Origin: Pseudorhodoferax aquiterrae
GTDB lineage: Bacteria; Pseudomonadota; Gammaproteobacteria; Burkholderiales; Burkholderiaceae_C
Reading direction: 5' to 3'
Assembly (NCBI RefSeq): GCF_014652235.1
Contig: NZ_BMYK01000021.1
Location: 1 to 64,000 of the forward strand
DNA length: 64,000 nucleotides
In this document: positions 1,997 to 5,365 of the stretch, piece by piece
How the letters are laid out: each line of letters begins with the position of its first letter
Numbering within the stretch: position 1 is the first letter of the stretch
Notes under the pieces: model-generated
Database searches by the model: none
Told to the model about the DNA's origin: nothing
What the model saw: the letters and a program-made list of their open reading frames with translations, nothing else
Program-made: the position numbers and the translations under genes

Positions 1997-4900
1997 ATGC
2001 GCGTCGCCAGCTGGAACATCAACAACGTCCGCAAGCGGCTGGAGCTGCTGCTGGACTGGCTCGCCCGTGCGCAGCCCGACGTGCTGGCCCTGCAGGAACT
2101 CAAGACGACGACCGCGGACTACCCGACCCAGGCCTTGACGGCCGCCGGCTACCACAGCCTGGTGGTCGGCCAGCGCAGCTGGAACGGGGTCGCGCTGCTG
2201 GCGCGCGGGGCCGAGCCGCTGCCGGTGCTGAACGCATTGCCGGGCGACCCGACGGACAAGGAGGCCCGCTATGTCGAAGCGGCCATCCACGGCGTGCTGT
2301 TCGCCTGCCTGTACCTGCCCAATGGCAACCCGCAGCCGGGGCCCAAGTTCGACCGCAAGCTGCGCTGGTTCGCGCGCCTGCAGGCGCGCACGCAAGCCCT
2401 GTGGGACTCGGGGCAGCCCGTGGTGCTGATGGGCGACTGGAACGTGGTGCCCACCGATGCCGACATCTACAAGCCCGACACCTGGCGCGACAACGCGCTG
2501 CTGCGGCCCGAGGCGCGCGAACGCTTTGCGGCCGTGCTGGCCCAGGGCTGGACCGACGCGGTGGACCGCATGCATCCGGGTGGCCGCCAGTTCACGTTCT
2601 GGGACTACCGCCGCAAGCGCTGGGAGCGCGATGCGGGGCTGCGCATCGACCACATCCTGGTGGGCGCGTCCCTGGTGCTGCGCGACGCCGGGGTGGACCG
2701 GGACGAGCGCGGCAGGGAGGGCGCCAGCGACCACGCCCCGGTCTGGGCGGAACTCGGTCTCGCCAAGGCCAAGCGGCCCGCACGCACCGCGGCCCGCCGC
2801 CAGAGCGCGCCGGAGCGCGCTGCCGATGCCGCTGCGCCGCTCGCCCGCTACCACGCCAAGCGCGACTTTTCGAGGACGGCCGAGCCCGCCGGCACGGTGC
2901 CCGGCCGCAGCGGCGCCGCGGGCGCAGCACTGGCCTTCGTGATCCAGAAACACTGGGCATCGCGCCTGCACTACGACCTGCGCCTGGAGCTCGATGGCGT
3001 CATGGTGTCCTGGGCCGTGCCCAAGGGACCGTCCTACGACCCGGCCGCCAAGCAGATGGCGATCCATGTCGAGGACCACCCCATCGCGTACAACCGTTTC
3101 GAAGGCAGCATCCCCAAAGGCGCGTACGGCGCCGGCAAGGTGATCGTCTGGGACCATGGCAGCTGGGAACCCGTCGGCGACGCCCGCGCGGGCCTGGCGC
3201 AGGGCAAGCTGGTCTTTCACCTGCATGGCCAGAAGCTGGCCGGCCTGTGGGAGCTGGTGCGCATCTCCAAGCCGGGCGCGCAGGCGCAGGACCAGTGGCT
3301 GTTCTTCAAGAAGCGCGGCGACGCCTGGGCCCGACCGGGCACGGAGTACGACGTCATCGCGGCGCTGCCGGACAGCGTGGTCGCGCAGCCGCTCGGCCTG
3401 GTCGAGGAGCGCGAGCCGCAGCGCGTGCGGCGGCCCGCGCCGCCGCCACCCGGCACGGTCGACCTGCGCGAGGCCCGCCGCGCGCCCCTGCCCGCCCGGC
3501 TGCAGCCGCAACTGGCCACGCTCGTGTCCTCGGTCCCCCCGGGCCACTGGATCGTCGAATCCAAGTTCGACGGCTACCGGCTGCTGGCGCGCGTCGCACC
3601 GGGCCAGGTGCGGCTGTTCACCCGCAACGGGCACGACTGGACCGACAGGCTCGCGCCGATCGCGCGCGCCGTCGCCGACCTCGGGCTCGGCAGCGCCTGG
3701 CTGGACGGCGAGATCGTGGTGTTGAACGATGCCGGGCTGCCGGACTTCAACCGCCTGCAGAACGCCATCGACAAGGCCAGCACCGGCGAGATCGTGCTGT
3801 TCGTCTTCGATCTGCCCTACCTCGACGGCCTGGACCTGCGCGAACTGCCGCTGTCCAGCCGGCGCGAGGTGCTGCGCCAGCGGTTCGCGGCACGCGGCGA
3901 CGGGGGCACCGTGCGCCTGAGCCAGTCCTTCGACGTGCAGCCCGGGCAGTTGCTGGAGGCCGCCTGCCGCATGGGCATGGAGGGCGTGATGGTCAAGCGC
4001 GCGGACGCCGCCTATACACCCGGCCGCGGCGAGAGCTGGCTCAAGCTCAAGTGCCAGCACCGGCAGGAGTTCGTGGTCGTGGGGTTCACCGAGCGCGCCG
4101 GCGCGCCCGGCGAGGTGGGCAGCCTGCTGCTGGGCTACCACGAAGGCACGGCGCTGCGCTTCGCGGGCTCGGTCGGGACGGGCTGGGGCGCGGAGACGGG
4201 GCGCGCGCTGCGCGCCAGGCTGGTCGGCCTGCGGACCGACCGGCCCGCGGTGGCCCCCGAGGACGCCCTGCCCGGCCGCTGGTCGCGCCGCGCGGCCGGC
4301 AGCGAGCGCTGGGTGCAGCCGCAGGTGGTGGTCGAGGTGGCGTTCTCCGAGTGGACGCCGGACGGCAAGGTGCGCCATGCGGTCTGGCGCGGGCTGCGCA
4401 CCGACAAGCCGGCAGCGCTGGTCGTGCGCGAGCGGCCGCGCCCGCTCGGTGCCGACCCGCCGCCCAGGACCGGCGCCGGCCGCGCCAAGCTCACCCACCC
4501 GGAGCGCGTGATCGACACGTCCAGCGGCCTGCGCAAGGTCGACCTGGTCCGCTACTACGAGAGCGTGGCCGAGTGGATCCTGCCCCACCTGAAGGGCCGG
4601 CCGGTATCGCTGGTGCGCGGGCCCACGGGCGTCGAGGGCGAGCTGTTCTTCCAGAAGCACGACGACAAGCTCGCGATCCCGCACGTGCGCAAGCTGACCG
4701 AGCGGCTGTGGCCGGGGCATGCGCCGCTGCTGGAAGTGTCCACGGCGCAGGCCCTGCTTGCCTGCGCGCAGATGAACGTGATCGAGTTCCACACCTGGAA
4801 CGCACGCGCGCGCACCATCGCCAGGCCCGACCGCATCGTGTTCGACCTGGACCCGGGCGAAGGCACGCCATGGCAGCAGGTGCAGGAGGCCGCCCTGCTC

Positions 4901-5365
4901 GTGCGGGCCCTGTTGCAGGAGCTCGGCCTGCAATGCTGGCTCAAGACCTCCGGCGGCAAGGGCCTGCACGTGGTGGTGCCGCTGGCGCCGCGGCTGGAGT
5001 ACGACGCAGTGAAGGACTTCTCGCAGGCCGTGGTGCGGCATCTGGCGCGGACGATTCCGGGACGCTTCGTTGCCAAGAGCGGGCCCAGCAACCGCGTGGG
5101 CAAGCTGTTCGTGGACTACCTGCGCAACGGCCACGGTGCCACCACCGCGGCCGCGTTCTCGGCGCGTGCGCGCCCCGGCCTGGGCGTGTCCATGCCGGTG
5201 GCCTGGGAGCAGCTGGCCGAGCTGCGCAACGGCGCGCAGTGGACCATCGCCACCGCGCGCGAGTACCTGAGCTTCCAGCAGCAGGATCCCTGGCACGACT
5301 ACTGGTCGACGCGCCAGGGCCTGGCCGCCGCACGCAGGACGCTGGACCGTGCCGCGGCGCGTTGA
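1997..5365 (+). CDS. ligD: exonuclease III-like / DNA ligase D fusion protein
   Basis: One uninterrupted 1122-residue frame joins two repair enzymes. Residues 1-255 are an exonuclease III/AP endonuclease (EEP) domain: SWNINNVRKR near the start, LQELK, GDWNVVP and the terminal SDHAP with D245/H246. After a roughly 40-residue Ala/Arg linker comes a complete LigD: a 3'-phosphoesterase domain (HYDLRLELDG near 325), an ATP-dependent ligase with nucleophile K523 in KFDG, and a primase-polymerase domain with D950/D952 (FDLDPG) and TSGGKGLH. LigD alone is usually about 840 residues, which fits the extra length. The linker has no in-frame ATG, GTG or TTG, so LigD cannot easily start separately. LigD acts in Ku-dependent end joining; no Ku gene is in the window. 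The ribosome site is weak. Confidence 0.92.
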   Translation: MRVASWNINNVRKRLELLLDWLARAQPDVLALQELKTTTADYPTQALTAAGYHSLVVGQRSWNGVALLARGAEPLPVLNALPGDPTDKEARYVEAAIHGVLFACLYLPNGNPQPGPKFDRKLRWFARLQARTQALWDSGQPVVLMGDWNVVPTDADIYKPDTWRDNALLRPEARERFAAVLAQGWTDAVDRMHPGGRQFTFWDYRRKRWERDAGLRIDHILVGASLVLRDAGVDRDERGREGASDHAPVWAELGLAKAKRPARTAARRQSAPERAADAAAPLARYHAKRDFSRTAEPAGTVPGRSGAAGAALAFVIQKHWASRLHYDLRLELDGVMVSWAVPKGPSYDPAAKQMAIHVEDHPIAYNRFEGSIPKGAYGAGKVIVWDHGSWEPVGDARAGLAQGKLVFHLHGQKLAGLWELVRISKPGAQAQDQWLFFKKRGDAWARPGTEYDVIAALPDSVVAQPLGLVEEREPQRVRRPAPPPPGTVDLREARRAPLPARLQPQLATLVSSVPPGHWIVESKFDGYRLLARVAPGQVRLFTRNGHDWTDRLAPIARAVADLGLGSAWLDGEIVVLNDAGLPDFNRLQNAIDKASTGEIVLFVFDLPYLDGLDLRELPLSSRREVLRQRFAARGDGGTVRLSQSFDVQPGQLLEAACRMGMEGVMVKRADAAYTPGRGESWLKLKCQHRQEFVVVGFTERAGAPGEVGSLLLGYHEGTALRFAGSVGTGWGAETGRALRARLVGLRTDRPAVAPEDALPGRWSRRAAGSERWVQPQVVVEVAFSEWTPDGKVRHAVWRGLRTDKPAALVVRERPRPLGADPPPRTGAGRAKLTHPERVIDTSSGLRKVDLVRYYESVAEWILPHLKGRPVSLVRGPTGVEGELFFQKHDDKLAIPHVRKLTERLWPGHAPLLEVSTAQALLACAQMNVIEFHTWNARARTIARPDRIVFDLDPGEGTPWQQVQEAALLVRALLQELGLQCWLKTSGGKGLHVVVPLAPRLEYDAVKDFSQAVVRHLARTIPGRFVAKSGPSNRVGKLFVDYLRNGHGATTAAAFSARARPGLGVSMPVAWEQLAELRNGAQWTIATAREYLSFQQQDPWHDYWSTRQGLAAARRTLDRAAAR

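Follow-up and report, generated by a model that had tools for sequence, protein, structure and literature searches.

Bacterial non-homologous end joining (NHEJ) is usually described as the work of two proteins, Ku and DNA ligase D (LigD), and a survey of 5,973 bacterial genomes speaks of phosphoesterase (PE), ligase (LIG) and polymerase (POL) domains for LigD (PMC7719229). Here we examine a gene of the soil bacterium Pseudorhodoferax aquiterrae in which an ExoIII-type nuclease precedes a complete LigD in a single open frame. It lies on the forward strand at 1997..5365 (stop codon included) of the window, by which we mean the whole analysed stretch of 64,000 nucleotides from contig NZ_BMYK01000021.1. 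Residues 279-1118 of its 1122-residue product match the model of three-domain, PE-LIG-POL LigD (NCBIfam PRK05972/NF004628, TIGR02776), scoring 1105 bits with NF004628 (cut-off 895). Compared with that protein, the fusion adds an N-terminal ExoIII domain of 253 residues.

The closest published architecture that we saw is the fusion of an RMMBL nuclease to LigB in Opitutus terrae and Antarctic Dry Valley metagenomes, where the nuclease is likewise N-terminal to an ATP-dependent repair ligase; the nuclease fold, however, is a different one and the ligase is of another type, not LigD (PMC10140301). The mycobacterial LigC/Prim-PolC complex for base-excision repair (BER) similarly brings an ATP ligase and a Prim-Pol into action with ExoIII, XthA and EndoIV, but its parts are separate interacting proteins and its ligase is LigC rather than LigD (PMC5663958). 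Among solved structures the best match is NExo, which shares its catalytic residues and Asn108 with the fused domain, whereas the fused domain has Leu at the position of NExo His167 and is joined to LigD; the genome's own locus L016 encodes a closer relative of NExo. Finally, separate xth and ligD genes stand side by side on sphingomonad plasmids, in Mycetohabitans and on a Dyadobacter plasmid, encoding the same Leu168 type of ExoIII, but as two proteins. Searches of open-access full texts listed no paper that describes an ExoIII-LigD fusion, judged by titles and the starts of abstracts; subscription papers and domain databases lie outside this scope, and listings may well exist there.

An ExoIII domain and a complete LigD in one frame

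The 1122-codon frame is free of internal stops and stays open upstream as far as a stop at 1724. We took the ATG at 1997 as the start because Met occupies that position in all 20 aligned fusions. All domains lie on the + strand, and both Pfam and NCBIfam matches bear out the order given in the original prediction, namely an ExoIII-family domain followed by the PE, ligase and Prim-Pol domains of LigD, with all four NCBIfam matches above cut-off. The ExoIII/Xth (EEP) domain, residues 1-253 (1997..2755), is matched by PF03372 (Exo_endo_phos, 4-246) and exceeds the cut-offs of two xth models, TIGR00633 (1-253; 214.4 bits, cut-off 99.05) and TIGR00195 (212.4, cut-off 182.55). It stays below those of the narrower PRK11756 (151.1, cut-off 280) and PRK13911 (73.5, cut-off 503). 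The LigD 3'-phosphoesterase domain occupies residues 282-440 (2840..3316; TIGR02777, LigD_PE_dom, 282-440; PF13298, LigD_N, 317-422). The ATP-dependent ligase core, comprising nucleotidyltransferase and OB parts, is at residues 496-812 (3482..4432), bounds that are those of the phmmer segment used; its matches are PF01068 (DNA_ligase_A_M, 505-685), PF04679 (DNA_ligase_A_C, 705-804) and TIGR02779 (NHEJ_ligase_lig, 504-809). The Prim-Pol (AEP polymerase) domain is at residues 831-1105 (4487..5311), again the segment used in the domain comparison, with matches to PF21686 (LigD_Prim-Pol, 847-1099) and TIGR02778 (ligD_pol, 831-1074).

Membership in LigD is evident from the ligase, Prim-Pol and PE domains in one chain and from the presence of the ligase lysine and the Prim-Pol aspartates. 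Lys523 of the KFDG motif (3563..3565), which we take to be the AMP-accepting lysine, and both aspartates of Asp950-Leu-Asp952 (4844..4852), presumably the metal motif of the Prim-Pol, are invariant in the 20 aligned fusions; these are the residues named in the original prediction.

The linker, residues 254-281 (2756..2839), had been put at about 40 residues; measured from the end of the ExoIII match (253) to the start of the PE match (282) it is 28 long, and longer if counted to the Pfam LigD_N match. In relatives it ranges from 17 to 44 residues, and it is basic and of low complexity, rich in Ala, Lys, Arg and Pro. The earlier remark that it holds no start codon is right for this protein, which has no in-frame ATG, GTG or TTG between residues 234 and 300; beyond these come GTG 301 and GTG 315, both of them within the TIGR02777 PE match, and ATG 336. 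It does not carry over to several relatives, whose linkers do contain start codons, for example ATG in L044, and GTG and ATG in L045.

The fusion is genuine and conserved. Three copies are present in the genome (7.1 Mb, 94 contigs), on the contig studied here and on contigs C26 and C44, the latter two 72 and 73% identical to the 1122-residue protein. Stop-free, full-length fusions occur in all six genomes examined for the genus, this one included, at three, two, two, one, one and one per genome. A single alignment holds 20 full-length fusions, each matching all the domain families, the 19 others being 63-95% identical to the protein studied here. Given three copies in this genome and fusions in other species, we regard the probability of a sequencing or assembly artefact as practically negligible, and the frameshift error that the original prediction named as its possible undoing can hardly account for it. 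The 20 aligned proteins come from 24 distinct fusions; we excluded L053, which lies at a contig end, and three copies that look damaged: that of Pelomonas (L051), whose first codons are out of frame, that of Ottowia (L090), with a frame of 760 residues, and that of genome G061 (L143), whose frame is interrupted in the ligase domain.

The ExoIII part is under purifying selection, like the LigD part: against three relatives its ratio of nonsynonymous to synonymous substitution rates (dN/dS) is 0.17, 0.27 and 0.19, with 0.07-0.34 for the LigD domains and 0.33-0.79 for the linker. The fusion is probably functional. Among the best 80 of 559 relatives in a scan of named genomes, 18 loci were fused and 62 were unfused LigD; the fused ones, some incomplete, belong to Variovorax, Pseudorhodoferax, Acidovorax, Aquincola, Pelomonas, Ottowia, a Candidatus Aquabacterium and a Burkholderiaceae metagenome-assembled genome. 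In a family sample of 120 genomes, about one per genus, four carry the fusion (in one of them the frame is interrupted within the ligase) and 33 have a LigD match at E <= 1e-150. The fusion looks like a local innovation, since no fusion outside the source genome appeared among the matches listed for samples of 143 class and 200 phylum genomes; distant fusions outside the Burkholderiales may nonetheless exist among the relatives beyond the best 80.

Ancestry and active site of the nuclease domain

The source genome has two further Xth genes, L016, nearest NExo (240 bits), and another nearest NApe (316 bits); the NApe label of that structure, 2jc5, rests on 4B5H, which is called NApe in PMC6294502 and matches almost equally. 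As separate NExo-like and NApe-like enzymes are thus present, the fused domains form a third, additional type. A tree of 64 ExoIII rows gathers the 24 fused domains and one stand-alone row into a single clade (support 100/100). This is nested in a larger clade (99/98) that includes all 13 ligD-neighbouring rows, while 21 NExo-like housekeeping rows and E. coli XthA fall outside it. Seven of 71 rows were left out: three were cut duplicates, two came from one interrupted gene, one was a contig-end fragment and one a partial row. The tree covers matches of at least 60 bits, hence the NApe-like Xth of the source genome, which scores lower, is absent. Nine of the 13 neighbouring rows come from L138-L142 and plasmid loci chosen because both genes matched, and are examples rather than a sample.

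The catalytic residues of ExoIII (Asn7, Glu34, Tyr, Asp, Asn, Asp and His) are present in all 24 distinct fused domains, save that Asn7 is found in 23 with one gap, in L051, which lacks its first residues. Glu34 (2096..2098), presumably a metal-site residue, and His246 of the SDH motif (2732..2734; NExo His247) are among those in 24/24. The nearest solved structure is NExo (PDB 2jc4, 6fk4; 180 bits), followed by 2voa, which we take to be an Archaeoglobus enzyme (136), E. coli ExoIII (1ako; 116) and NApe (85). Asp147 (2435..2437), also in 24/24, corresponds to the catalytic Asp146 of NExo (PMC6294502).

NExo is described as a 3'-phosphatase without AP (abasic-site) endonuclease activity, its His167 sterically hindering the abasic residue; the H167G or H167S mutant gains this activity, although H167G is nearly three-thousandfold slower than NApe (PMC6294502), so other determinants of AP cleavage must exist. 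At this gate position the fused domain has Leu168 (2498..2500). Leu is found there in all 24 fused domains, in 13/13 ligD-neighbouring rows, in the three other members of the clade and in a joined row from Mycetohabitans. Outside the clade the residue is His in 21/21 NExo-like housekeeping rows, Ser in E. coli XthA and Gly in two NApe-like rows (the one from the source genome and L172, the latter labelled by its letters only); the aligned letter in 2voa is Cys. Of another 32 rows, which include repeats and fused copies, 31 have Leu and one has Val. The Gly or Ser expected of an AP endonuclease is therefore seen in none of the 24 fused domains. Leu being bulky, native abasic sites are probably disfavoured. 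Lacking His167, the fused domain is not filed as NExo itself, but it probably works like the NExo 3'-phosphatase.

These residues bear on a reading in which the protein is a single-chain BER enzyme, with ExoIII cutting abasic sites and LigD removing the 5'-deoxyribose phosphate (5'-dRP), filling one nucleotide and sealing. Such a scheme gains from reports that the LigD of B. subtilis acts as a 5'-dRP lyase and can support BER in a reconstituted system, that the lyase is also found in P. aeruginosa LigD (PMC4770248) and that LigC cooperates with BER enzymes (PMC5663958); the scores above two Xth cut-offs fit it too. We nevertheless consider it unlikely, with Leu instead of Gly or Ser at the gate throughout the fused domains, a domain nearer NExo than NApe, a NApe-like Xth already in the genome and ku in the flanks of nine of the 18 fused loci.

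That end-joining context would also suit a 3'-5' exonuclease that resects ends to microhomology before fill-in and ligation, making joining more mutagenic, and E. coli ExoIII counts a 3'-5' exonuclease among its activities (PMC6294502). Position 108 of NExo matters for 3'-phosphatase versus exonuclease behaviour, and replacement of Asn108 by Ser is said to suit exonuclease activity better (PMC6294502). The Asn is kept throughout the clade (N109 in 24/24 fused domains), and we judge resection to be a distinctly improbable role.

Linkage of the ExoIII type to LigD and Ku

The same ExoIII type is associated with LigD well beyond the fusion. In the family sample it occurs (E <= 1e-60) in 14 of 120 genomes, and all 14 have LigD, compared with 33/120 overall (p 1.2e-9). 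With the four fusion genomes removed, LigD is present in 10/10 (p 2.5e-7), and the result is the same at E <= 1e-80, the weakest best match there being 2.6e-87. In the phylum sample LigD accompanies the ExoIII type in 21 of 22 genomes at E <= 1e-80, a cut-off chosen after the list was seen, compared with 35/200 overall, the exception being genome G384. The co-occurrence statistics of both samples and the neighbour counts below ignore relatedness and genome size.

Physical proximity points the same way. The ExoIII gene lies within about 6 kb of LigD in seven of these 21 LigD-positive phylum genomes at 1e-80, all seven in one family (f173), and it was found in the fetched flanks of five of the 62 unfused LigD loci (one of them cut by a contig end), where 0.3-0.4 would be expected if a 5 Mb genome has two to three xth genes. 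Rhizobia, sphingomonads, Mycetohabitans, Variovorax and a Bacteroidota plasmid have separate genes of this type next to ligD or ku. An Agrobacterium locus combines ligD, a second ligase, two ku genes and xth, and ligD, ku and xth lie together on pSymB of S. meliloti. On the Dyadobacter plasmid 24 bases separate ligD and xth, and on a Sphingobium plasmid xth overlaps a gene for a LigC-type ligase. Sphingomonad conjugative plasmids (L135, L136) carry a row of four genes, ligD, xth, a further one (a cupin gene in L135) and one for topoisomerase I, of which the first three overlap by 4 bases each; the row looks like a mobile DNA-repair operon. The order of the separate pairs varies, with xth upstream of ligD in Mycetohabitans and downstream in the sphingomonad and Dyadobacter plasmids. 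The genes ligD, ku or one for another ATP ligase lay within 7 kb in five of eight regions examined, a selection made for variety among 60 spread rows (of 276 records).

Mycetohabitans was considered as a second true fusion and rejected: in the joined frame of strains B12 and HKI 454 the ExoIII match is lost after residue 227, SDH histidine included, and the B12 row also deviates at two other catalytic positions. Strains B49 and B5 have separate full-length xth and ligD frames, with Glu at the Asp218 position in B49. These megaplasmids (L131-L134) vary by strain, the two frames being separate or joined, and in HKI 454 the Prim-Pol is interrupted as well. One joined frame is annotated merely as DNA ligase D, and automatic annotation can therefore hide a nuclease part.

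The B12 and HKI 454 plasmids show how easily such frames join, with loss of the ExoIII C-terminus, and the ExoIII half has been lost in some relatives of the fusion, such as L054. Both observations suit a neutral account, in which neighbouring repair genes came to share a frame, the domains act independently and the tether brings no gain. Purifying selection, however, keeps the fusion in many species, and multiple copies are present in three of the six genomes of the genus; we give this account very little credence.

A proposed four-domain end-joining enzyme and its origin

We lean towards the reading that this is a four-domain end-joining enzyme, in which an N-terminal, 3'-end-cleaning ExoIII nuclease is tethered to a complete LigD, the ExoIII type having once been separate and merged with LigD in the Burkholderiales. 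Substrate preference, Ku dependence and the order of steps are predictions from sequence and genome context. Ku from the same genome would hold the broken ends and recruit the chain through the Prim-Pol domain, POL being the domain that mediates Ku-LigD contact (PMC7719229). The ExoIII domain would then strip blocked 3' ends, such as 3'-phosphates, the 3'-unsaturated aldehydes produced by AP lyases including Ku, and other oxidised 3' remnants, leaving a 3'-OH. The Prim-Pol domain would fill in after this cleaning, the phosphoesterase would trim ribonucleotides and the ligase domain would seal last. Trimming of ribonucleotides is an activity of the LigD phosphoesterase. The three nearly complete Ku matches in the source genome, and one partial, are all over cut-off. 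AP lyases, Ku among them, leave 3'-phospho-unsaturated aldehyde (3'-PUA) ends that need cleaning (PMC4245934), and mycobacterial LigC binds ExoIII, XthA and EndoIV, with which it cooperates in vitro (PMC5663958). The AP-lyase activity of Ku, the 5'-dRP lyase of LigD and the LigC-ExoIII findings agree with a 3' cleaner that is tethered in front of Prim-Pol and ligase.

The original prediction of a four-activity repair enzyme can accordingly be kept in part. One chain does carry four nucleic-acid-processing domains, and the idea that end cleaning is coupled to fill-in and ligation gains support from the presence of the catalytic ExoIII residues and from the genomic and phyletic linkage of the ExoIII type to LigD. 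The suggested cutting of abasic sites is less supported, because the domain is closest to NExo and has Leu at the His167 position in all fused copies.

Several points weigh against the end-cleaning proposal. LigD already contains a 3'-phosphoesterase. In the LigC system EndoIV helped more than the ExoIII-type enzymes owing to its lack of a strong 3'-5' exonuclease (PMC5663958), and given the broad specificity of E. coli ExoIII, 3'-5' exonuclease included (PMC6294502), the fused domain may yet cleave abasic sites. Our comparison turned up no Leu-type enzyme of known activity. Leu168 also occurs outside end-joining contexts, in copies from Paracoccus, Phenylobacterium and Cupriavidus, with no ligD or ku within 7 kb of any of them (the Paracoccus copy is beside dnaA/recF), and no ku was seen in the flanks of the other nine of the 18 fused loci. 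In the phylum sample at E <= 1e-60, which admits copies of 42-48% identity, LigD is present in 27 of 43 genomes with the ExoIII type, again a larger share than the 35/200 overall (p 1.5e-15), leaving 16 without a LigD match; the link to LigD holds for close relatives of the ExoIII type and less for distant ones. Lastly, the LigD halves of the fusions do not form one clade. That arrangement, a group named after the first tree was seen, was rejected by the approximately unbiased test (p 2.6e-9) on a tree that includes the two paralogues of the source genome, and losses or several fusions must therefore be assumed.

The ExoIII type is found with LigD as an unlinked, neighbouring or abutting gene, and would have become one gene with it in the Burkholderiales. 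On the simplest reading the two fused once, early on, and the ExoIII part was later lost from some copies. The unfused Acidovorax copy L054 is placed inside the fused group of the LigD tree. Genome G082 has a fused copy on contig C41 beside an unfused pair on C4, in which the ExoIII stop lies a few bases ahead of the ligD start codon, plausibly the ancestral layout. Stand-alone ExoIII genes related to the fused domain are present in two same-genus genomes (L036 in G005, L037 in G004); L036 falls within the fused ExoIII clade and is possibly a split product. Two further ideas were discarded: a phage origin, as no relative was confirmed in the viral-contig scan (0/21 matches in phage records reach 80% coverage of the query, and the 10 that were listed are to the ligase domain), and a defence system, with no PADLOC match.

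The source genome has other ligases and a possibly altered gene neighbourhood. A plain LigD of 863 residues on contig C19 is 55% identical over its length and has the PE-LIG-POL order of the LigD part of the fusion. In total five ATP-dependent ligases are over cut-off, namely the three fused LigD proteins, the plain one and one of 583 residues; a ligase-like protein of 294 residues is below it. Apart from the fusion studied here, these are loci L007-L011 on contigs C26, C44, C19, C7 and C22. In L039 and L052 a divergent ku lies about 0.7-1.6 kb upstream of the fusion, and farther off in L040. The similarity of the contig studied here to L039 begins at 1754, and a sensor kinase lies at 116-1684. 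Contig C28 carries the matching ku (98% identical) at its end (L197), and its own similarity to L039 breaks off about 155 bases short of that point; an insertion with the sensor kinase may lie between these two contig ends. Directly upstream of the fusion, at 1860-1958, is a small open reading frame of 32 residues (MRKMILMAVAGFLWKQFKARQ...), and a like one precedes the fusions L039, L040 and L052 and the paralogue L008, making five of 20 loci examined, this one included.

The wider claim is perhaps the more interesting part, that this ExoIII type is a standing partner in NHEJ. Tentatively, and with some reserve, we suggest that the Leu168-type ExoIII may be an overlooked third NHEJ partner, a dedicated 3'-end cleaner that goes with LigD and Ku across Pseudomonadota and on at least one Bacteroidota plasmid, be it unlinked, neighbouring or abutting, and that was built into LigD in the Burkholderiales as a clean-fill-seal chain with up to three paralogues. 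If true, the ExoIII-LigD fusion and the wide linkage of the ExoIII type would identify a factor, so far missing, that deals with blocked 3' ends such as those arising from the AP lyase of Ku. As a single protein, the fusion itself offers a system for assaying cleaning, fill-in and sealing and for uncoupling them by point mutations.

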